Below are positions 6,901-59,161 of a stretch of DNA of 64,000 nucleotides, one piece after another (the first letter of the stretch is position 1; each line of letters starts with the position of its first letter). Below the pieces are notes generated by a model. That model was not told where the DNA came from. It worked only from the letters and a program-made list of their open reading frames with translations, and did not search any database. The stretch covers positions 1 to 64,000 of the forward strand of contig NZ_ML660189.1 in NCBI RefSeq assembly GCF_007483665.1. The letters are read 5' to 3'. Both the position numbers and the translations under genes were made by a program. The DNA is from Catellatospora sichuanensis. GTDB taxonomy: Bacteria; Actinomycetota; Actinomycetes; Mycobacteriales; Micromonosporaceae.

Positions 6901-7117
6901 CAGCAGCGCACAGGATCTGTGCCTCCTCCCCACCCGGCGGCGGGCGGGGGTGACCATCGGGGTTGGTCACCACCGCCCGCCGCCACCTTTGTGCCCGGAA
7001 CCCGGCCCGCACCACGCACGCCACCAGCGCTTCCCTTGCAGCGCCCGCGCCAGAGCCTCTTGCCGGACCTTGGGCAACCCGCCCCGACCGCTGCCATGAC
7101 GCGATGCCGCCGTCTTC

Positions 7118-7247
7118 CGCGACGACATCGCTCCGCGTCGCGCTGCGCCCTGCCCCTCGGTGCCCGCATCTTCGCGACGACATCGCTCCGCGTCGCGCTG
7201 CGCCCTGCCCCTCGGTGCCCGCATCTTCGCGACGACATCGCTCCGCG
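7118..7247. repeat. 55-base tandem repeat, about 2.4 copies
   Basis: Exact 55-base periodicity: GACGACATCGCTCCGCG starts at 7121, 7176 and 7231. The third copy breaks off at 7247. Read on the minus strand each unit contains ATGTCGTCGCG, so every copy offers an ATG in a new frame (55 is not a multiple of three). There are no unique spacers, so it is not CRISPR. Confidence 0.9.
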
Positions 7248-7415
7248 CCGCTCCTGCGGTGTAGTGGCGCGGCCGGATCCAGGCGATTCGCCGTCGCCCC
7301 CTGGCGACAAGAGGTCGCCTGGATCTGTTCGGCGTCGTGGTACGCCGGGCGGCGTTGCAGCGATTTCCGGTGGATCGCCGGCGGTTCGCCGTGGCGCGCG
7401 GCGGGCGCTGCGCAA

Positions 7416-42571: not shown

Positions 42572-42705
42572 GGCTTCTCCTCGCCGTTCCGGATGCCCCG
42601 TTGACCAACGAGCCGAAGCCGCATCCGCACCGTCTTCGCTGCTCATCGCTCCGCCTGCGGTCGGGGTGGGGCGGGCCGGGCCGTCGGCCGGGCTCGCTGC
42701 GCGCG

Positions 42706-42908
42706 CGCTCATCGCGCCGCCTCCGGCGTCGCGATGAGCCAAACGGCGCCCATGATTCGCTCGCTCCGCTCGCTCATCGCGCCGCCTCCGGCGTCGCGAT
42801 GAGCCAAACGGCGCCCATGATTCGCTCGCTCCGCTCGCTCATCGCGCCGCCTCCGGCGTCGTGATGAGCCAAACGGCGCCCATGATTCGCTCGCTCCGCT
42901 CGCTCATC
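42706..42908. repeat. 65-base tandem repeat, three copies, between glgB and the GT4 gene
   Basis: Units begin at 42706, 42771 and 42836, with a fourth start at 42901-42908. Units 1 and 2 are identical; unit 3 differs at 42862. On the minus strand every unit reads ATGAGCGAGCGGAGCGAGCG, a start codon followed by Ser-Glu-Arg-type codons. The stop codon of the GT4 gene (42904-42906) is inside the last partial unit. A degenerate unit may precede at 42640-42660. The rest of the 332-base gap (42572-42903) holds only the glgB leader. Confidence 0.92.
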
Positions 42909-44244
42909 GGAGCAGGTTTCCGTCAGGGACGATGATCTGAGGGCGTTCACCACCGGTCTGCTCGGCCAGGCGTTCGGCCTGGAAGGCGGGTTCCTGCGCG
43001 ATGGCGCTGCGGTAGGTCTGCACGGTGCTGGCCGCGATGGTCTGCCAGCCGTACCGCTTGGACACCATGGTCAGCGCGCGCTTGGCGATCTGCTTGGCCT
43101 TGACCGGCTCGGCGAGCAGCGTGCCCACGGCGCCGGCGAGGGCCTCGGGGTTGCTGTGCGGGAAGGTCATGCCGGTCACGCCGGGTTCGACGATCTCGGC
43201 CAGGCCGCCGGTGTCGGCGACGGCCAGCGGCGCGCCGGCCGCGGCGGCCTCCAGTGCGACCATGCCGAACGGCTCGTACAGCGAGGGCACCACGGTGGCA
43301 TCGGTCGCCGCGAGCACGGCGGGCAGCTCGCGCTCGGACAGGAAGCCGATGAAGCTGACCTGCTTCTCGATCTTCAGGGCGTGTGTCGCCTCGACCAGCT
43401 GCTCGCGGTAGGGGCCGTCGCCGGCGATGACCACCCGCAAGCCCGGGTGCTCGTCGGCCAGCTGCGGCACCGCGTCGACCAGGTGCTGCACGCCCTTCTC
43501 GTACACCAGCCGCCCGGCGAAGCCGACCAGCGGGCCGTCGCCGGCGAACCGGGAGCGCGCCTCGCGGACCGCCTGCACGGGAGCCTTCCAGACCCGGCCG
43601 TCGACGCCGTTGGGAATGACGTCGACCTTGCCGATGGGCAGGTTGAGCAGCCGGGTGACCTCCCAGCGCATGTACTCCGAGCAGACCAGCACCCGGCAGG
43701 CGCGGTGGCCGAGCCACCACTCGACGGAGTGGATGCTCTTGTTCAGGTCCTCCGGCAGCCAGCCCTGGTGCCGACCGGCCTCGGTGGCGTGGATGGTGGC
43801 GACCAGGGGGCGGCCCAGGTGCTCGGCCAGCGTCACCGCGGTGTGCGTGACCAGCCAGTCGTGGCCGTGGATCACGTCGTAGTCGTCGGCCTCGGCGGCC
43901 CGCAGCGCGGCCCGGGTGAGGGTGTGGTTGAACGCCATCGTCCACGCCAGCAGCGTCGGGGTGGCGAGCGGGAACAGCGGCGGGTCCTCGGGCGCGCGGA
44001 CGATGCGCACTCCTTGCAGCCCTGGCATCGGCGGGGGAGCGTACTCCTCCAGCGGGGCGCCGGGTGCGTGCCGGGTGACGACGGTGACGTGGTGACCGGC
44101 CATCACCAGCGAATTGGCCAGCGCATGCACGTGCCGGCCGAGGCCGCCGACCACAACCGGCGGGTATTCCCAGGAAAGCATCATGATCCGCAGCGGCTTC
44201 GATGCCGTCGGCAGACCCGATGGGACGGGAAGGTTCATGGTCAT
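42904..44244 (-). CDS. GT4-family glycosyltransferase, glycogen-synthase-like
   Basis: The 446-residue GT-B fold enzyme begins with LRIMMLSWEYPPVVVGGLGRH, the Gly-rich donor loop seen in GT4 glycogen/starch synthases, followed by HDWLVTHTAVTLAE, a central VDVIPNGVDGRVW, the donor-binding FAGRLVYEKGVQHLVDAVPQL and the retaining-transferase EX7E motif PSLYEPFGMVALEAAAAGAP. It most likely extends an alpha-1,4-glucan (or makes maltose-1-phosphate, as GlgM does) from ADP- or UDP-glucose; sequence alone does not decide. AGGGGG five bases before ATG 44242-44244 sets the start. Clustering with glgB, a debranching enzyme and a GH63-like glucosidase supports a role in glycogen. Confidence 0.88.
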   Translation of the reverse strand: MTMNLPVPSGLPTASKPLRIMMLSWEYPPVVVGGLGRHVHALANSLVMAGHHVTVVTRHAPGAPLEEYAPPPMPGLQGVRIVRAPEDPPLFPLATPTLLAWTMAFNHTLTRAALRAAEADDYDVIHGHDWLVTHTAVTLAEHLGRPLVATIHATEAGRHQGWLPEDLNKSIHSVEWWLGHRACRVLVCSEYMRWEVTRLLNLPIGKVDVIPNGVDGRVWKAPVQAVREARSRFAGDGPLVGFAGRLVYEKGVQHLVDAVPQLADEHPGLRVVIAGDGPYREQLVEATHALKIEKQVSFIGFLSERELPAVLAATDATVVPSLYEPFGMVALEAAAAGAPLAVADTGGLAEIVEPGVTGMTFPHSNPEALAGAVGTLLAEPVKAKQIAKRALTMVSKRYGWQTIAASTVQTYRSAIAQEPAFQAERLAEQTGGERPQIIVPDGNLLR

Positions 44245-46353: not shown

Positions 46354-46477
46354 GCAGCAACTCTGCCAAAAAACCGGGGCAATCGGGATGGTGATCGCGC
46401 GACTCCGCCAAAGTTACGCAGACGTGTAACAGAGGCAGGAGACAATCACGGGGTGGGCGAGCAGAGCGGGGATCGTG

Positions 46478-46612
46478 TGAGCGAGCGCAGCGAGCGAACC
46501 GGATGGCACGGGTTCAACGCGGGTGACGAGCGTAGCGAGGAGCACGTGCGCGAGCGCAGCGAGCGGACCCATGGGCTCGGGCCCGCGGGTGACGAGCGTA
46601 GCGAGGAGCACG
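46478..46612. repeat. SER-type interspersed repeat upstream of the GH63-like gene
   Basis: GTGAGCGAGCGCAGCGAGCG begins at 46478 and a similar GCGAGCGCAGCGAGCG block near 46549. Between and after them GGGTGACGAGCGTAGCGAGG occurs at 46521 and 46587 (66-base period). The GAGCGAGCG(C/G)AGCGAGCG core is shared with the 65-base repeat at 42706-42908. The last block contains the GAGGAG that serves as ribosome site for the next gene. Confidence 0.85.
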
Positions 46613-52258: not shown

Positions 52259-53242
52259 TCAGGGGCGGATCACCAGGCGGAAGCCGAGGTGGCAGGTCGA
52301 GGTGTCCACGGCCTGGGGCATCCGGGCGGCGGGGCGGTAGCGGCGGCAGTAGTTGGGCGCGCAGAGGTAGGAACCGCCCTTCATCACCCGGCGCGGGATG
52401 CGCACGGCGGGCGTGGCCGGGTCGTAGCTGGCCTGTTCGGCGTCGCCGCGCGGGCTCGCCGGGGCGCAGCAGGCATGCTGTCCGGCGGTGTCGTGGGGGC
52501 CGTACCAGTCGGACGTCCACTCCCACACGTTGCCGATCATGTCGAGGAGCCCGAACGCGTTCGGTGGGAACGAGCCGACGGGCGCGGTCGTCTCGTAGCC
52601 GTCGGCGGCCAGGTTGAGCACCGGGAACTCGCCCTGCCACACGTTGGCCAGGTGTTCGCCGCCCGGGGTCAGCTCATCGCCCCAGGCGTACTCGGCGGGG
52701 TCGGTCGCGCCGCCGGACGCGGCGTACTCCCATTCGGCCTCGGTCGGCAGGTCGCCGCCTGCCCAGGCCGCGTACGCGGCGACGTCGGCCCAGGCCACGT
52801 GGACGACCGGATGGTCGTCGAGGCCGCGCAGGTCGGAGCCGGGTCCGTACGGGTGCCGCCAGTCCGCGCCGGGCAGCAGTTGCCACCAGTTGCGCACGTC
52901 GCGCATGTCCACTCGGCGGTGCGGTCTGACGAACACCACCGACGCCGGGACCAGCAGTGACGGGTCGGCCCCGGGGTAGTCGGCCGGGTCCGGGGCGGTC
53001 TCGGCGACGGTCACGTGGCCGGTCTGCCGGACGAACCGGGCGAACTGCCGGTTGGTGACCTGCTGCCGGTCGATCCAGAAGCCGCCGACCCGGGCCGCGT
53101 GCGCCGGGGCCTCCTCGGGGTAGTGCGCGTCGGAGCCCATCCGGAACGTGCCGCCGGGCAGCCAGACCATGCCCGGCCGGGGCGGCGTGCCTGGTGCCTC
53201 GCCGTCCCGGCCGGGCCGGGTCAGGGTGACCGGTCCACTCAC
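52259..53242 (-). CDS. Formylglycine-generating enzyme (FGE/SUMF1 type)
   Basis: The 327-residue protein is a formylglycine-generating-enzyme-sulfatase domain protein. It has WLPGGTFRMGSDAHYPEEAPAH, FWIDRQQVTNRQFARFV, DHPVVHVAWADVAAYAAWAGGDLPTEAEWEYAA, NAFGLLDMIGNVWEWTSDWY and RRVMKGGSYLCAPNYCRRYRPAARM. The last block carries two cysteines five residues apart (Cys294, Cys299), the spacing of the copper-binding active-site pair in true FGE, which distinguishes it from non-catalytic relatives. FGE oxidises the Cys of the CXPXR-type motif of sulfatases to formylglycine; a Cys-type sulfatase is encoded 2 kb away. The start is GTG 53242, overlapping the stop of the DUF308 gene by four bases (GTGA), so the two are co-translated. 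Confidence 0.93.
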   Translation of the reverse strand: MSGPVTLTRPGRDGEAPGTPPRPGMVWLPGGTFRMGSDAHYPEEAPAHAARVGGFWIDRQQVTNRQFARFVRQTGHVTVAETAPDPADYPGADPSLLVPASVVFVRPHRRVDMRDVRNWWQLLPGADWRHPYGPGSDLRGLDDHPVVHVAWADVAAYAAWAGGDLPTEAEWEYAASGGATDPAEYAWGDELTPGGEHLANVWQGEFPVLNLAADGYETTAPVGSFPPNAFGLLDMIGNVWEWTSDWYGPHDTAGQHACCAPASPRGDAEQASYDPATPAVRIPRRVMKGGSYLCAPNYCRRYRPAARMPQAVDTSTCHLGFRLVIRP

Positions 53243-54027
53243 GCGGGGACCGCCGGGCCGGTGTTGCCGGGGCCGACCAGCCCCTGCTCGGCCTTGTGCT
53301 TCAGGTCGCGCATCCGGAACGCCATGATGAAGTCGGTGATGCCGCGTGCCAGGCAGATCGCGCCGACGAACACGATGAGCAGGAAGAACGAGCGGGTGAA
53401 GCGGCCCGCGGCCCAGAAACCGAGCAGCATCTCGATGATGCCGACGACCAGGCCGAGCCACCAGCCGTCGTGCTCCTTCTTGGTGAGGAAGGCCAGCACG
53501 ATGTCGGCGGCGCCCTTGAACAGCAGGTACCAGCCGATGAACGCGGCCAGCCAGAACACCGTGCCGCCGGGGTTGATCCAGCAGATGAAGCCGGTGATCA
53601 GGAACAGCACGCCGAGGATGGCGTGCAGCCAGCGCCAGCCGGGCGCGGTGAACGCCTGGAACAGCTCGAACACGCCGGCGACCAGTACGACGATGCCGGC
53701 CAGTGTGGCGACGGTGGCGATGCTGCGTACCGGCGACTGGTTGAGGGCCAGCACGAACCAGGAGACGATGATCCAGCAGACGCCGGTGATGAGGAACAGC
53801 CACCACGGCACGCGGGACGCGGGCAGCGGCGTTCCGGCGCTGCGGAACACGTCGCCGGTCGACGTCGTGCCCGGTGGGACCGGGCCGGGCGCGGACTTGG
53901 TGGCCGCCCGTGCGGTGCCGGTCGCCACGCCCTCGGTCTCCTTCGCCGCGTGGGCGCCGGTCGCGGCGGCGGCGCCGGCGGCCTTGCCGGGCTTACCGGT
54001 GCTGGGGCTGGGCGATGCGGTGCTCAT
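53239..54027 (-). CDS. DUF308/HdeD-family membrane protein with Ala-rich N-terminus
   Basis: The 262-residue protein has a disordered Ala/Thr/Gly/Lys-rich N-terminus of about 70 residues, then six TM helices in the HdeD/DUF308 pattern (PWWLFLITGVCWIIVSWFVL, AGIVVLVAGVFELFQAF, WRWLHAILGVLFLITGFICWINPGGTVFWLAAFIGWYLLFKGAADIV). It is coupled to the FGE gene by a GTGA overlap. DUF308 proteins have no established function; close association with a formylglycine-generating enzyme and sulfatase may point to a role in exporting or supporting that pathway, but this is inference. The N-terminal extension is absent from the HdeD protein at 17.3 kb. Confidence 0.87.
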   Translation of the reverse strand: MSTASPSPSTGKPGKAAGAAAATGAHAAKETEGVATGTARAATKSAPGPVPPGTTSTGDVFRSAGTPLPASRVPWWLFLITGVCWIIVSWFVLALNQSPVRSIATVATLAGIVVLVAGVFELFQAFTAPGWRWLHAILGVLFLITGFICWINPGGTVFWLAAFIGWYLLFKGAADIVLAFLTKKEHDGWWLGLVVGIIEMLLGFWAAGRFTRSFFLLIVFVGAICLARGITDFIMAFRMRDLKHKAEQGLVGPGNTGPAVPA

Positions 54028-54189: not shown

Positions 54190-54897
54190 CTACTCCAGCG
54201 CGGAGAGCGCGCCGGCCACCGCGAAGCCGAGCACCGCCAGCAGGCCGGTGGCCTTGCCGCCCTGCCGGTAGGCCTCCGGGATCATCGAGTCGGCGAGCAT
54301 GGTGAGCACCGCGCCCGCGGCGAACGCCTCGACGTAACCACCGTCGGCGCGAGGGACCAGCTCGTACAGCAGGTAGCCCGCAGCCGCGGCCAGCGCCGAC
54401 ACCGCCACGACGATCCACCACACGCCGTAGGCCTGGGCCTTCGTGTGCCCATGGGCGCGCATGGTCGCAGTCGCACCCAGCGCCTCGGGCAGATTGGACA
54501 CGAACACCGCGACCAGAAAGGCCACCGCCACCTCGCCGCTCATGGCCACCCCGATGCCCAGCACCAGCGATTCCGGCACGCTGTCCAGCAGCGCGCCGAT
54601 CACCAGGGACCGTTCCGCCGAAGCAGCGCCCATGGTGCGCCGCCCGGCGACGACCGCGTCCGTGCCGAAGAAGACCACCGCGCCCAGGCCGAACGCGGTG
54701 AACAGCAGCACGTCCTGTTGGAACCCGGTGGGCACCAGCTCGTACGCGATCGCCGCGAGCAGCGCGCCGGAGCCGAACCCCATCACCATGCCGACCCGCG
54801 TCGTGGGCACCGGGCGCGGTCGGTAGGCCAGCCATGCGCCGACGACCAGGGAGAACGCCGCAAGGGCGCCCCACCCGGCTGCCGCCAACACGCCCAT
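54190..54897 (-). CDS. ZIP-family metal transporter
   Basis: The 235-residue integral membrane protein has eight TM helices in the ZIP arrangement. The two metal-path motifs are recognisable in helices 4 and 5: DSVPESLVLGIGVA and SNLPEALGATATM (family pattern H/N/D-x-x-P-E-G/S/A). ZIP proteins move Zn, Fe or other divalent cations into the cytoplasm. The start is ATG 54895-54897, with GGAGG five bases upstream. It is divergent from the sulfatase gene, with a 110-base AT-rich shared promoter region, and separated by 162 bases from the DUF308 gene downstream. A link to sulfatase/FGE metal needs is plausible but unproven. Confidence 0.87.
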   Translation of the reverse strand: MGVLAAAGWGALAAFSLVVGAWLAYRPRPVPTTRVGMVMGFGSGALLAAIAYELVPTGFQQDVLLFTAFGLGAVVFFGTDAVVAGRRTMGAASAERSLVIGALLDSVPESLVLGIGVAMSGEVAVAFLVAVFVSNLPEALGATATMRAHGHTKAQAYGVWWIVVAVSALAAAAGYLLYELVPRADGGYVEAFAAGAVLTMLADSMIPEAYRQGGKATGLLAVLGFAVAGALSALE

Positions 54898-55007
54898 GCG
54901 ACCTCCATCGTCTGCGTACGACGGTATCAACGCATTCCAGAGATAACGGAAATAAGACTCGTATCTTCGGAATACTGGAGCGTGGTATCCGTTCCTTGGG
55001 AGGCGAC

Positions 55008-56954
55008 ATGCCCCGAACGCAGTCCACGGTGAAGAAGGCCGCCGCGACAAAGGCCACTGCGACAAAGGCCACTGCGACAAAGGCCACTGCGACAAAGGCC
55101 ACTGCGAAGAAGGCCACTGCGAAGAAGGCCCCGGGGAAGAAGGCGCCCGCATCACCGGCGGCGGCCCGCAAGCCCGTCCCGACCAAGGCGAGCGTGACGA
55201 AGACCGCCGTGACGAAGACCGTCGCGTCGAAGGCCGCCGCGAAGGCGCCCGCCGCGAAGGGCGCGCCCGCGCGCGCCACGGCGAAGGCCGCTCCGGCCGG
55301 TGGGCAGACCGCACGCAAGGTCGGGCCGGGCAAGAAGGCGGCGGCGCCCGTACCCGCGAAGAAGGCTCCGCCCTCCCGCGCAACCGCGCGTACCGCGGCC
55401 GACCGCGGCCCGGCGCGCAAGTCGTCGCCGCGGTCCGCGGCAGGCGGCGCGAGCGCGGGCCGCAAGCCCAACATCCTGGTCATCTGGGGTGACGACATCG
55501 GCATCACCAACCTGAGCTGCTACAGCGACGGGCTGATGGGCTACCGCACGCCCAACATCGACCGGGTCGCCGACGAGGGCATCCGTTTCACCGACTACTA
55601 CGGCGAGCAGAGCTGCACCGCCGGCCGCTCCGCGTTCCTGACCGGGCAGTCCGTGTTCCGCACCGGCCTGTCCAAGGTCGGCCTGCCCGGTGCCGACCTC
55701 GGCCTGCACGCCGAGGACCCCACCATCGCCGAGCTGCTGAAACCGCACGGGTATGCGACCGGCCAGTTCGGCAAGAACCACTTCGGCGACAAGGACCGGT
55801 TCCTGCCCACCATGCACGGGTTCGACGAGTTCTTCGGCAACCTCTACCACCTCAACGCCGAGGAGGAGCCCGAGCACGAGGACTACCCCGATCCGCGGCG
55901 CTTCCCGGACTTCAAGGGCAACTTCGGGCCGCGCGGGGTGCTGCACTGCTGGGCCCTGCCCGACGGTGGCCAGAAGATCGAGGACACCGGCCCGCTGACC
56001 CGCAAGCGCATGGAGACCATCGACGACGAGGTGTTCGAGCACGCGGCCGACTTCATCGAGCGCCAGGCGACCGCCGACACGCCGTTCTTCGTCTGGTTCA
56101 ACACCACGCACATGCACTTCAAGACGCACCCGCGGCCGGAGATCAAGGGGTGGGCGGGCCCGTGGCAGTCCGACTACCACGACGTGATGGTCGACCACGA
56201 CCGGCTGGTCGGCGAGCTGCTGAACCTGCTGGACGAGCTCGGCATCGCCGACGACACGATCGTCATGTACAGCACGGACAACGGCCCGCACATGAACTCG
56301 TGGCCGGACGCGGGCATGAGCCCCTTCCGCAACGAGAAGAACTCCAACTGGGAGGGCGCCTACCGGGTGCCGGCCATGCTGCGCTGGCCCGGACGCATCC
56401 GGCCGGGGCGGGTCTCCAACGAGATCGTCAGCCATCTGGACCTGCTGCCGACGCTGCTGGCCGCGGCGGGCGACCCGGACATCGTCGAAAAGCTCGAGGC
56501 GGGGCACGAGGCCGCGGGCAAGCGCTTCCAGGTGCACCTGGACGGTTTCGACATGCTGCCCTACCTCACCGGTGAGGAGCCGCATGGCCCGCGCGAGGGG
56601 TTCTTCTACTTCTCCGACGACGGTGACCTGACCGCGCTGCGCTTCGACAACTGGAAGGTGGTCTTCATGGAGCAGCGGGTCCCGGGCACGATGCGCGTGT
56701 GGTCCGAGCCGTTCACGGCGCTGCGCATACCCAAGCTCTTCAACCTGCGCACCGACCCGTTCGAGCGGGCCGACGTCACGTCCAACACCTACTACTCCTG
56801 GTTCCTGGACCGCGCGTACATGATCCTGGCCGCGCAGCGGCTGGTCGGCGAGTTCATGGCCACGTTCCAGAGGTTCCCGCCCCGCCAGCACGCGGCCAGC
56901 TTCACGGTCGACCAGGTCATGGCGCGGATAAAAGAAGGGATCGGGAGTCACTGA
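55008..56954 (+). CDS. Arylsulfatase-type enzyme with N-terminal histone-H1-like Lys/Ala-rich tail
   Basis: The 648-residue sulfatase has an unusual N-terminus: about 150 residues made of Lys, Ala, Thr and Pro, starting with ATKAT pentapeptide repeats (15-base DNA repeats at 55044-55133), with no signal peptide or TM helix. From about residue 155 it is a type I sulfatase: metal ligands Asp162-Asp163 (WGDDIG), the formylglycine site Cys203 in CTAGR (C-x-A-x-R), and Asp424-Asn425 (STDNGPHMN). It hydrolyses sulfate esters once Cys203 is converted to formylglycine; the FGE gene is 1.8 kb to the left. The ATG at 55008 has GGGAGG five bases upstream. Its stop overlaps the next ATG (TGATG). The Lys-rich tail resembles HU or H1 C-terminal tails; nucleic-acid or polyanion binding is inferred. 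Confidence 0.92.
   Translation: MPRTQSTVKKAAATKATATKATATKATATKATAKKATAKKAPGKKAPASPAAARKPVPTKASVTKTAVTKTVASKAAAKAPAAKGAPARATAKAAPAGGQTARKVGPGKKAAAPVPAKKAPPSRATARTAADRGPARKSSPRSAAGGASAGRKPNILVIWGDDIGITNLSCYSDGLMGYRTPNIDRVADEGIRFTDYYGEQSCTAGRSAFLTGQSVFRTGLSKVGLPGADLGLHAEDPTIAELLKPHGYATGQFGKNHFGDKDRFLPTMHGFDEFFGNLYHLNAEEEPEHEDYPDPRRFPDFKGNFGPRGVLHCWALPDGGQKIEDTGPLTRKRMETIDDEVFEHAADFIERQATADTPFFVWFNTTHMHFKTHPRPEIKGWAGPWQSDYHDVMVDHDRLVGELLNLLDELGIADDTIVMYSTDNGPHMNSWPDAGMSPFRNEKNSNWEGAYRVPAMLRWPGRIRPGRVSNEIVSHLDLLPTLLAAAGDPDIVEKLEAGHEAAGKRFQVHLDGFDMLPYLTGEEPHGPREGFFYFSDDGDLTALRFDNWKVVFMEQRVPGTMRVWSEPFTALRIPKLFNLRTDPFERADVTSNTYYSWFLDRAYMILAAQRLVGEFMATFQRFPPRQHAASFTVDQVMARIKEGIGSH
55044..55133 (+). 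repeat. 15-base tandem repeat encoding ATKAT units in the sulfatase tail
   Basis: Four identical 15-base units (GCGACAAAGGCCACT) start at 55044, 55059, 55074 and 55089, followed by two variant units with AAG for AAA at 55104 and 55119. The reading frame is kept. Such a tract can change length by slippage without losing frame. Confidence 0.95.
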
Positions 56955-57856
56955 TGGCGTTCCTGCCCTCCTGGCGGCCGGGCCCCGCGCGCGACGCGAT
57001 CACGTCGTTCCTCGACGAGTCGCTGGCGCTGCCCGCCGAGCAGCGGGTGGCCGTGCTCGACAACGACGGCACGCTGTGGTGCGAGAAGCCGAGCTACGTC
57101 CAGTACGACTTCCTCGTGCGAACCCTGCACGCCGCCGTCGAGCACGACGCCGCCCTCGGCGAGCGGGCCGAGTACCGGGCCCTGCTCGACGGCGACCGAG
57201 CCGCACTCGGCGAGCTGGGCCTGCAGCGGATCGCGCTGGCCCTGCTGGAACTGTGCGCGGGCTGGACGCCCGACGAGTTCGCCGCGCGGGTGCGTGACTT
57301 CATGGCACAGGAGAAGCACCCCGGCCGGGGCGCGCCGTACCCGAAGATGGTCTACCAGCCGATGCTGGAGCTGCTGGAGGCGCTGCGCGGGCACGGCTTC
57401 GACATCTTCATCGTCACCGGCGGCGGCACCGAGTTCGTGCGCGCGATCAGCCGCGACCTCTACGGCGTGCGCCCCGACGACGTGGTCGGCACGCTGGTCG
57501 AATACCACTACGAGGAGCACGGCGACGGTCCGGCGCTGGTGCGCACCGCGCAGGCGCAGGGCGAGATCAACGAGGGCCCGGCGAAGGTCGAGCACATCCA
57601 GACCCAGCTGGGCCGCCGACCGATCTTCGCGGCCGGCAACTCCGCGGGCGACAGGGAGATGCTGGAGTACGCCCGCGCCGCCGGCACGCCCAGCCTGGCC
57701 GTGCTGATCGACCACGACGACGCGGACCGCGAATACGCGTACGCCTCGGTCGCGGTGACCATGAAGGACACCGAGCCGATCACCGACACGGGGCGCCGCC
57801 TGGGTTGGACGGTGGTCTCCATGCGCGACGACTGGTCGGGGATCTTCCCCACGTGA
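56954..57856 (+). CDS. HAD-superfamily phosphatase
   Basis: The 300-residue cytoplasmic protein has the HAD nucleophile motif LDNDGTLWCEKP (Asp36, Asp38), motif II (IFIVTGGG, Thr/Ser), and motif III/IV with a Lys in the cap region and AAGNSAGDREMLEYA (two acidic residues). It resembles phosphoserine-phosphatase-like HAD enzymes and is expected to remove phosphate from a small organic substrate, so far unidentified. Its ATG overlaps the sulfatase stop (TGATG), so the two proteins are coupled. A phosphatase translated with a sulfatase could act on the desulfated product or on a related metabolite; this is inference from context. Confidence 0.9.
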   Translation: MAFLPSWRPGPARDAITSFLDESLALPAEQRVAVLDNDGTLWCEKPSYVQYDFLVRTLHAAVEHDAALGERAEYRALLDGDRAALGELGLQRIALALLELCAGWTPDEFAARVRDFMAQEKHPGRGAPYPKMVYQPMLELLEALRGHGFDIFIVTGGGTEFVRAISRDLYGVRPDDVVGTLVEYHYEEHGDGPALVRTAQAQGEINEGPAKVEHIQTQLGRRPIFAAGNSAGDREMLEYARAAGTPSLAVLIDHDDADREYAYASVAVTMKDTEPITDTGRRLGWTVVSMRDDWSGIFPT

Positions 57857-57907: not shown

Positions 57908-59161
57908 ATGGCGTACGACCTGCTGCTGACCGGTGGTCGTGTGATCGATCCGGACGGCGGGCGCGACGGCGTGGCCGATGTGGCGGTGACCGGCGGACGG
58001 ATCGCCGCGGTCGGCACGGACCTGCCCCGCGAGGACGCCCGCGAGGTCGTCGACGCGAGCGGCCGCCTGGTCACGCCCGGCCTGGTCGACCTGCACACGC
58101 ACGTGTTCCCCGGCGGGACCTACTGGGGCATCCACCCCGACCCGGTCGCCTGGTGCTCCGGCGTCACCACCTGGGTCGACGCGGGCTCCGCCGGGGCGTA
58201 CGGGCTGGACGCCCTGCGCGGCGCGGTGCGCGGCTACCGGGTGCGGGTGCCCGTGCTGCTCAACATCTCCGCCGTCGGCCTGACCGGGCTCACCGGCGAG
58301 TCCCGTGACCTCGCCGCATGCGACGTCGACCTCGCGATCCACACGATCGCCGCGAACCGGGACCTGGTGCACGGGGTCAAGGCCCGGATCGACGCCAACA
58401 CCGTCGGGACGCACGGGCTGGCGCCGCTGCGCCGCGCGGTCGCGGTCGCCCGGGCCTGCGAGCTGCCGCTCATGGTGCACGTGGGAGTCGCGCCGCCCAC
58501 CATCGCCGAACTGCTTCCGTTGCTCGGGGCGGGTGACATCGTCACGCACTGCGCCAGCGGCATCGCCATGGGCCGGGGCGGTCTGGACCCGGCGCTGCGC
58601 CGTGCGTACGACGCGGGGGTGCTCTTCGACCTCGGCCACGGTTCCGGCGGCTTCGCGTACGACGTGCTGGAGGCGCAGCTGGCCGCGGGCATGCCGCCGC
58701 ACGTCGTCTCCACCGACCTGCACGCGCGCTCGCTGTACGGCCCCGCCTTCGACCTGCCGACCACCATGGCCAAGCTGCTCGCCGTCGGCCTGCCGCTCGG
58801 GCAGGTCGTCGCCGCGGCCACCAGCGCCCCGGCGCGTGCCCTGGGACTGCCCGCCGGCACCGGCACCCTCGCCGTCGGCGCGCCGGCCGACCTGGCCGTG
58901 TTCGCCGCGGAACGGGGCGACTTCCCGCTGGCCGATGTGCACGGGCAGCTCCGCAGCGCGCCGCTGCGACTGCGCAACGAGGCGACCTACCTGGCCGGGC
59001 GGCTGCTGCCGCCGAGCCTGCCCGCGCCGCCCCCGCCGTGGGTCCCGCTCACACCCGCCCAGCGCGACGCGCTGACCCGCCGCGACCGTCTGATCCGCGA
59101 CCTGCTCACGACACCCCTGGTCACCCCCGACGGCCTCGCCGAGCAGTTTCCGCGCCCCTGA
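57908..59161 (+). CDS. Metal-dependent amidohydrolase/deacetylase (dihydroorotase-like superfamily)
   Basis: The 417-residue enzyme is an amidohydrolase with the barrel motifs DLHTHVFPGG (His63, His65), carboxylysine candidate Lys158 (HGVKARIDANTVG), MVHVGVAPP (His), IVTHCASG (His) and STDLHAR (Asp), a full set for a binuclear zinc centre. It is closest in pattern to the 'amidohydrolase/deacetylase' group that includes EF_0837-type proteins; the natural substrate (N-acetyl or cyclic amide compound) is unknown. It follows the HAD gene by 51 bases and probably shares its transcript; GAGG lies eight bases before the start. Some family members are linked to D-aminoacyl or N-acyl amino acid metabolism, but that is not shown here. 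Confidence 0.86.
   Translation: MAYDLLLTGGRVIDPDGGRDGVADVAVTGGRIAAVGTDLPREDAREVVDASGRLVTPGLVDLHTHVFPGGTYWGIHPDPVAWCSGVTTWVDAGSAGAYGLDALRGAVRGYRVRVPVLLNISAVGLTGLTGESRDLAACDVDLAIHTIAANRDLVHGVKARIDANTVGTHGLAPLRRAVAVARACELPLMVHVGVAPPTIAELLPLLGAGDIVTHCASGIAMGRGGLDPALRRAYDAGVLFDLGHGSGGFAYDVLEAQLAAGMPPHVVSTDLHARSLYGPAFDLPTTMAKLLAVGLPLGQVVAAATSAPARALGLPAGTGTLAVGAPADLAVFAAERGDFPLADVHGQLRSAPLRLRNEATYLAGRLLPPSLPAPPPPWVPLTPAQRDALTRRDRLIRDLLTTPLVTPDGLAEQFPRP

Follow-up and report, generated by a model that had tools for sequence, protein, structure and literature searches.

At the N terminus of a sulfatase encoded by Catellatospora sichuanensis is a long Lys/Ala-rich extension resembling the tail of histone H1, and the question raised by this locus is whether the two parts are truly one protein and, if so, what such a tail does on a sulfatase. 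The DNA analysed is a stretch of 64,000 nucleotides (contig NZ_ML660189.1, positions 1 to 64,000), referred to here as the window. The tail–sulfatase fusion is real and genus-wide: an H1-like tail joined to a leaderless sulfatase, as claimed in an earlier note on this DNA, is present in 11 of 11 genomes of the genus. The gene comprises the following features.

55008–56954 (+): tailed type I (formylglycine) sulfatase, 648 residues plus stop (open reading frame listing; Pfam PF00884, 8.3e-51).
54998–55003 (+): Shine–Dalgarno sequence GGGAGG, 4 bases 5′ of the ATG at 55008 (read from the sequence).
55008–55466 (+): N-terminal Lys/Ala/Thr/Pro tail, 153 residues, net charge +36 (composition count; predicted disorder).
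55035–55130 (+): 15-base tandem repeat, 6.4 copies with 95% matches (TRF), encoding KATAT/KATAK units.
55467–56951 (+): sulfatase domain (PNILVIWGDD...), its start coinciding with the start of untailed homologues.
55614–55628 (+): CTAGR formylglycine motif, residues 203–207, unchanged across all 34 sequences aligned.

In the open reading frame listing the frame begins at an earlier ATG (54834). Ahead of the sulfatase domain are in-frame starts at −211, −157, −153, −146, −91 and −86 residues, and the one closest to the domain (−86) keeps 86 tail residues in the sulfatase product. As no in-frame start yields a tailless sulfatase, and GGGAGG precedes the ATG at 55008, the tail is not an annotation error; GGAG or GAGG likewise precedes the tail ATG in all 11 genus members, and an annotation artefact was rejected on these grounds. 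An assembly artefact was rejected because the tailed sulfatase is present in 11 separate genomes. The earlier note had proposed looking for an internal start after the tail and for conservation of the tail in relatives; no such start was found and all 11 genus orthologues have the tail, so the fusion withstands both tests. Since Lys-rich DNA can mimic weak Shine–Dalgarno sites, a shorter isoform from the start at −91 or −86 may be made alongside the full-length tail.

The tail is composed of 27 Lys, 10 Arg, 50 Ala, 20 Thr and 16 Pro residues, with a single acidic residue among the 153, and its only residue of the set FWYLIM is the initial Met. The earlier description of an extension of about 150 Lys/Ala/Thr/Pro residues with in-frame 15-base repeats thus matches the coordinates given above. 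Disorder prediction, which the same note had proposed, gave a disordered tail: in an AlphaFold2 model built from 34 sequences, residues 1–150 have 10-residue mean pLDDT values of 29–34 and no secondary structure. Long, disordered by this prediction, Lys/Ala-rich, acid-poor and containing KKAxxKKA/PAKK motifs, the tail has the make-up of a nucleoid-type tail, and it gives a weak match, below cut-off, to the histone H1-like HC2 profile (E 1.1e-4). No second Lys-rich frame was found in the window among stop-to-stop frames of at least 80 codons (50-residue stretches sampled every 10, with at least 9 Lys).

Following the tail is the sulfatase domain, matched by PF00884 over residues 154–488 (173.5 bits against a cut-off of 25) and by the Pfam family Sulfatase_C at residues 528–596, the latter barely exceeding its cut-off. 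The usual formylglycine sulfatase motif is CxPxR; its counterpart here, CTAGR, was read by script in 117 of 117 homologues (80 + 9 + 28, the 80 being the best 80 of 590). Residues C203, R207, D162, D163, K256, H258, H370, D424, N425 and K444 are identical in all 34 aligned sequences (the 11 genus orthologues plus 23 from the 79 remaining genome-contig loci), and H368 is conserved in 32 of the 34; among these are what we take to be the metal ligands and the catalytic Lys and His. Aligned to 7aj0 and arylsulfatase A, the active-site residues follow the type I motif and ligand pattern, bearing out the initial reading of a type I sulfatase with all its active-site residues. In the AlphaFold2 model the domain has pLDDT values mostly of 75–98, with low loops that include 430–443 and 555–572 and a low C-terminal end (mean of 71.9 for the whole model from 34 sequences).

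The closest solved structure is PsFucS1 (7aj0; E 1.4e-35, 29% identity), described as a Pseudoalteromonas sulfatase acting on fucoidan, followed by arylsulfatase A. Owing to the low identity of the PDB neighbours (22–29%), their substrate is not transferable to the window sulfatase. Shared with type I S1 sulfatases (PsFucS1 7aj0, human arylsulfatase A and the Pseudomonas aeruginosa arylsulfatase 1hdh) are the alkaline-phosphatase-superfamily fold, the catalytic Cys/Arg, metal-ligand, Lys and His positions, and a nearby gene for a formylglycine-generating enzyme (FGE); unlike them, the window protein has CTAGR, a 153-residue polycationic N-terminal tail and only 22–29% identity. The window protein is predicted to be a sulfate-ester hydrolase.

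Within about the first 75 residues, the best 15-residue mean hydropathy is 0.13 in the window protein and reaches at most 1.11 across the 11 orthologues. By this measure no Sec/Tat-type hydrophobic leader was found in any of the 11, and a signal peptide was rejected, as had been read from the sequence initially. Two orthologues (L088 and L089) have a mildly hydrophobic patch, LLRSAAVVAGG, further inside the protein, which is too distant from the N terminus to be a leader. The surprise expressed at a sulfatase lacking a signal peptide was misplaced: scripted sorting of the N termini of the best 80 of 590 homologues gave 69 with short leaders, 10 with hydrophobic leaders and 1 ambiguous (the tailed locus L005 was counted among the 69 owing to a GTG at −11 without a Shine–Dalgarno sequence), and a passage in a review describes cysteine-type sulfatases as typically cytosolic (PMC3920027). 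A frequent start among the untailed homologues is M-P-N-G-K-PNILVIWGDD. The leaderless state is the norm of this sulfatase subfamily, and the oddity lies in the tail alone.

Each of the 11 Catellatospora genomes searched encodes a sulfatase orthologue (81–100% identical), and each orthologue has the tail, with a length of 96–153 residues. Lysine makes up 14–19% of the 11 tails against 2.8–3.4% of the cores, and the tails carry a net charge of +23 to +36, the cores one of −22 to −30; the tails contain 0–4 acidic residues and 1–4 residues of the set FWYLIM. In alignment, expansion of the 15-base array is confined to this species among the 11 genus members. The ratio dN/dS is 0.26–0.62 in the tail and 0.12–0.26 in the core, and is higher in the tail in 7 of 7 pairs, with uncertain alignment in the repeat part. 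In all seven pairs compared, changes at third positions outnumber those at either of the other two, in core and tail alike; in the tail they do not always make up the majority. This third-position excess, together with a dN/dS of 0.26–0.62, indicates a tail that is translated and loosely constrained; a dN/dS above that of the core fits retention of composition only and also weak constraint. Sequence and length of the tail drift within the genus, and its charge and composition are kept.

Outside the genus the enzyme is widespread and the long tail was not found. From 590 confirmed places, the genome-contig scan kept the best 80 (66–84% identical), which span cyanobacteria, proteobacteria, chloroflexi, actinobacteria, a Methanocella bin and others. 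The sole tailed locus among these 80 is L005, from Catellatospora tritici, whose upstream sequence is identical to that of the genus locus L093, and the 79 non-Catellatospora loci have no long tail. In the family search, matches at 1e-120 or below came from 21 of 250 genomes, of which 11 belong to the genus and 10 lie outside it, and none of the nine N termini read from the ten non-genus matches (L122 left out) has a long tail. In the class search, the threshold of 1e-150 was reached by 27 of 394 genomes, the window's genome included, and no tail is present in the 28 of 29 loci read (L158 was excluded, and three more class matches had no locus). The search of relatives suggested by the earlier note therefore places the tail in 11 of 11 genus genomes and in none of the 9 family and 28 class relatives. 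Three related Micromonosporaceae have Lys-containing leaders of 11–24 residues: 24 residues from a GTG, with 6 Lys, in L116; 16 residues from a GTG (8 from an ATG) in L115; and 11 residues in L117. A tree built from 31 sequences groups Catellatospora in a clade of its own (100/99) and the three short-leader sequences in a second clade (100/99); it does not establish the two as sister groups.

These comparisons bear on whether the tail is low-complexity sequence that expanded by replication slippage in Lys/Ala codons on a short basic leader and is tolerated, having at most a role in solubility or stability and no specific partner. The 15-base copies are nearly identical and expanded in this species only, the tail varies in length and has a dN/dS above that of the core, and the 11–24-residue leaders of the three related genera could be the starting material. 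However, a neutral expansion should gain Asp, Glu or hydrophobic residues, or be lost somewhere, and all 11 species keep the charge, the scarcity of acidic (0–4) and FWYLIM (1–4) residues, and a length of at least 96 residues. We consider such an origin possible but doubtful.

The tail has company in the genome. The motif KKA[SPTA][SPTA]KKA has 8 matches in six genes of the window's 9.45-Mb genome; a looser pattern containing it has 16 matches, which fall at the same six loci by position (assigned to genes by coordinates), and the reversed-pattern control gave 0 matches for both. The six genes encode an RpoD-type sigma factor, Ku, topoisomerase I (TopA), HU, an H1-like protein and the sulfatase. 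The resemblance to HU and H1 pointed out initially was right and can be sharpened, the motif occurring also on the sigma factor, Ku, TopA and a stand-alone H1-like protein. In the 11 genus genomes the strict motif has 76 matches in 58 genes: 8 for sigma factors, 9 for Ku, 11 each for TopA, HU and H1-like proteins, 4 for sulfatases, 3 for phasin-like proteins and 1 for a LysM protein, where genes without a BLAST class (several H1-like, L181, L211, L229 and L230) were assigned by reading translations. The five DNA-related classes account for 50 of the 58. The sulfatase has the strict motif in 4 of 11 genus genomes; in the remaining seven the tail is similar in kind and looser.

For tail boundaries drawn by hand, net charge per residue is 0.24 for the sulfatase tail, 0.19 for Ku, 0.28 for HU and 0.30 for TopA. 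The phasin-like tail is weakly charged (0.11 per residue). Sharing the motif does not imply equal charge, for the sigma factor carries almost no net charge in its motif region (0.05 per residue, with Asp+Glu at 14%). Nor is the motif an infallible mark of DNA binding, since one LysM protein uses an H1-like linker: in this protein, from C. tritici (genome G009; L230, 1227–1976, +), the linker is rich in Lys/Ala/Thr and lies before LysM.

The H1-like protein of the window's genome has about 385 residues, nearly all Lys/Ala/Thr/Arg, and is HC2-like below cut-off; its gene is at G000:C14:280 kb (loci L130 and L131). Stand-alone Lys/Ala/Thr/Arg proteins of this type, of roughly 225–400 residues (HC2/H1-like, below cut-off), are present in all 11 genus genomes, with orthologues (for example, L187, L194, L195, L196, L202 and L203) that vary strongly in length and one copy cut by a contig end. 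Phasin-like proteins with a PhaF-like C-terminal Lys/Ala/Pro tail are encoded in three genus genomes (L181, 424–1548, +; L211; L229); the match of L181 to PF05597 is weak and below cut-off, and L211 and L229 are called phasin-like by reading.

Surrounding the sulfatase gene in the window are the following genes.

52259–53242 (−): formylglycine-generating enzyme, the sulfatase activator (PF03781, 1e-81).
53239–54027 (−): HdeD-like DUF308 membrane protein (PF03729, 7e-20).
54190–54897 (−): ZIP-like metal transporter, divergent neighbour (PF02535, 3.1e-6, below cut-off).
56954–57856 (+): HAD-IB-like phosphatase (PF12710, 9e-16).
57908–59161 (+): amidohydrolase/deacetylase-family metallohydrolase (NF006689, 5.8e-114, above cut-off).

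The FGE has its best PDB match in the formylglycine-generating enzyme 6s07 (1.8e-71), with both LC..YC cysteines kept, and would supply the formylglycine of the sulfatase by modifying CTAGR. The ATG of the HAD phosphatase overlaps the sulfatase stop (TGATG, 56952–56956), so the two are probably co-translated. Among the best 80 of 590 homologous loci, several with incomplete flanks, an FGE-like match occurs at 40, a HAD-like match at 28, DUF308 at 3, amidohydrolase at 1 and ZIP at 1. Conserved neighbours were rejected as a clue to substrate, as the co-occurrence of these five families names none. In the HdeD-like protein, about 60 residues at the N terminus are rich in Ala/Thr/Ser/Lys.

The explanation that we favour, with a probability of about 0.5, is a cytoplasmic sulfate-ester hydrolase with a nonspecific polyanion tether, mainly to the nucleoid, a reading in which we infer the binding, location, substrate and benefit. 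In Catellatospora, an FGE-activated sulfatase of a widespread, mostly leaderless subfamily would have gained a polycationic, disordered tether at its N terminus, built like the lysine-repeat tails that actinobacterial HU, Ku and topoisomerase I carry. The most probable role of this tail is nonspecific binding of intracellular polyanions, chiefly the nucleoid; the enzyme would thereby be spread over, or held at, chromosomal DNA, and the folded domain would cleave small imported sulfate esters to sulfate. What the sequences show for this reading is the gene and its start, a tail predicted to be disordered, the intact active-site residues, the adjacent FGE gene, the genus-wide retention of tail charge and composition despite sequence turnover, and the company in which the motif is found; the similar charge per residue of the Ku, HU and TopA tails and the lack of a hydrophobic leader also speak for it. 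Against DNA as its target are the restriction of the strict motif to 4 of 11 sulfatases and the binding of polyphosphate (AlgP) and heparin (HBHA) by similar tails. We know of no reason for a sulfatase to gain from DNA tethering.

The nearest models for a DNA tether are the lysine repeats described in a review for Streptomyces HrdB, Ku, HupS and TopA (PMC7398561). Ku and HupB are stated there to require their repeats for DNA binding (for HupB, also in PMC5676037). The sulfatase tail resembles those of HupB/HupS, Ku, TopA and HrdB in its K/A/T/P composition and KKAxxKKA motifs, and approximates those of HU, Ku and TopA in net charge per residue. In the known proteins the folded part acts on DNA, whereas here it is a sulfatase, and the tails of HU, Ku and TopA are C-terminal whereas this one is N-terminal. 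The same review reports that tail lysines of HupB are modified and suggests this for TopA (PMC7398561). A chromatin-anchored sulfatase that hydrolyses sulfate esters, or promiscuously phospho-/sulfo-esters, on or beside DNA, perhaps regulated via modification of its tail lysines, can be put forward only tentatively.

An H1-like tail on a protein with no enzymatic role in DNA handling is found in the pseudomonad proteins PhaF and AlgP, whose tails are described as thought to connect granules with the nucleoid (PMC9239181, PMC13052382); unlike the window sulfatase, these are granule proteins with C-terminal tails and no hydrolases. The fusion is unusual in that its folded part is neither a DNA protein nor a granule protein. 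The H1-like Lys/Ala tails of the known proteins are polyanion binders, and sequence alone cannot tell which polyanion the sulfatase tail would use.

Mycobacterial HBHA suggests a possible route out of the cell. Its Lys/Ala/Pro C-terminal repeats (KKAAPA, KKAAAKK) are described as binding heparin (PMC3293801), and the protein as surface-exposed without a signal peptide (PMC6032435), so a comparable signal-peptide-independent export might place the sulfatase outside, its tail holding it on a sulfated or anionic polysaccharide substrate of the cell wall or environment. The window protein shares with HBHA the Lys/Ala/Pro repeats and the lack of a signal peptide, and polysaccharide sulfatases are among its best structural neighbours, PsFucS1 foremost; however, at no more than 29% identity these say little of substrate. 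HBHA is an adhesin with a coiled coil, C-terminal repeats and shown heparin binding, and is no sulfatase, whereas the window tail is N-terminal and its folded part a sulfatase. Further against export, the 10 proteins with export signals among the best 80 of 590 homologues use ordinary hydrophobic leaders (69 have short ones), no export gene was found among the neighbouring genes scanned, and the other motif-bearing genes of the window's genome encode DNA proteins. HBHA is itself also reported to be nucleoid-associated (PMC10665949). We regard export as unlikely.

Instead of DNA, the tail might bind polyphosphate or RNA, and the sulfatase would then sit at polyphosphate granules or condensates. 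AlgP is described as having a 154-residue KPAA-repeat tail and associating with polyphosphate granules, its C terminus being needed for granule spacing (PMC9239181). A phosphatase gene of the HAD type overlaps the sulfatase stop, but no match to a polyphosphate-enzyme family was found among the neighbouring genes scanned. Moreover, AlgP is speculated in the same source to tether granules to the nucleoid, so that this explanation, which we hold to be rather improbable, overlaps with tethering to the nucleoid.

An action of the tail on its own acidic core or oligomer, as an electrostatic arm guiding sulfate esters or regulating the active site, was rejected as highly improbable: the core is acidic in all 11 orthologues (−22 to −30), but untailed family and class relatives are equally so (mean −26.7 in 37, against −26.8 in the 11 tailed), and the mean is −20.4 in 79 genome-contig homologues from the best 80 of 590.

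The proteins on which H1-like lysine tails are known either handle DNA or position storage granules. Genus-wide occurrence of such a tail on a hydrolase of small molecules or glycans would suggest that these tails are portable tethers for ordinary enzymes, and the case offers a clean natural experiment: the enzyme occurs in tailed form in one genus and in untailed form in related ones. In the open-licence literature searched, no report was found of a sulfatase with a histone H1-like lysine-rich tail or of a Catellatospora sulfatase.

Elsewhere in the window are three further tandem repeats: a 55-base unit at 7113–7251 (2.5 copies, 97% matches), a 65-base unit at 42692–42909 (3.3 copies, 97% matches) and a 66-base unit at 46477–46612 (2.0 copies).
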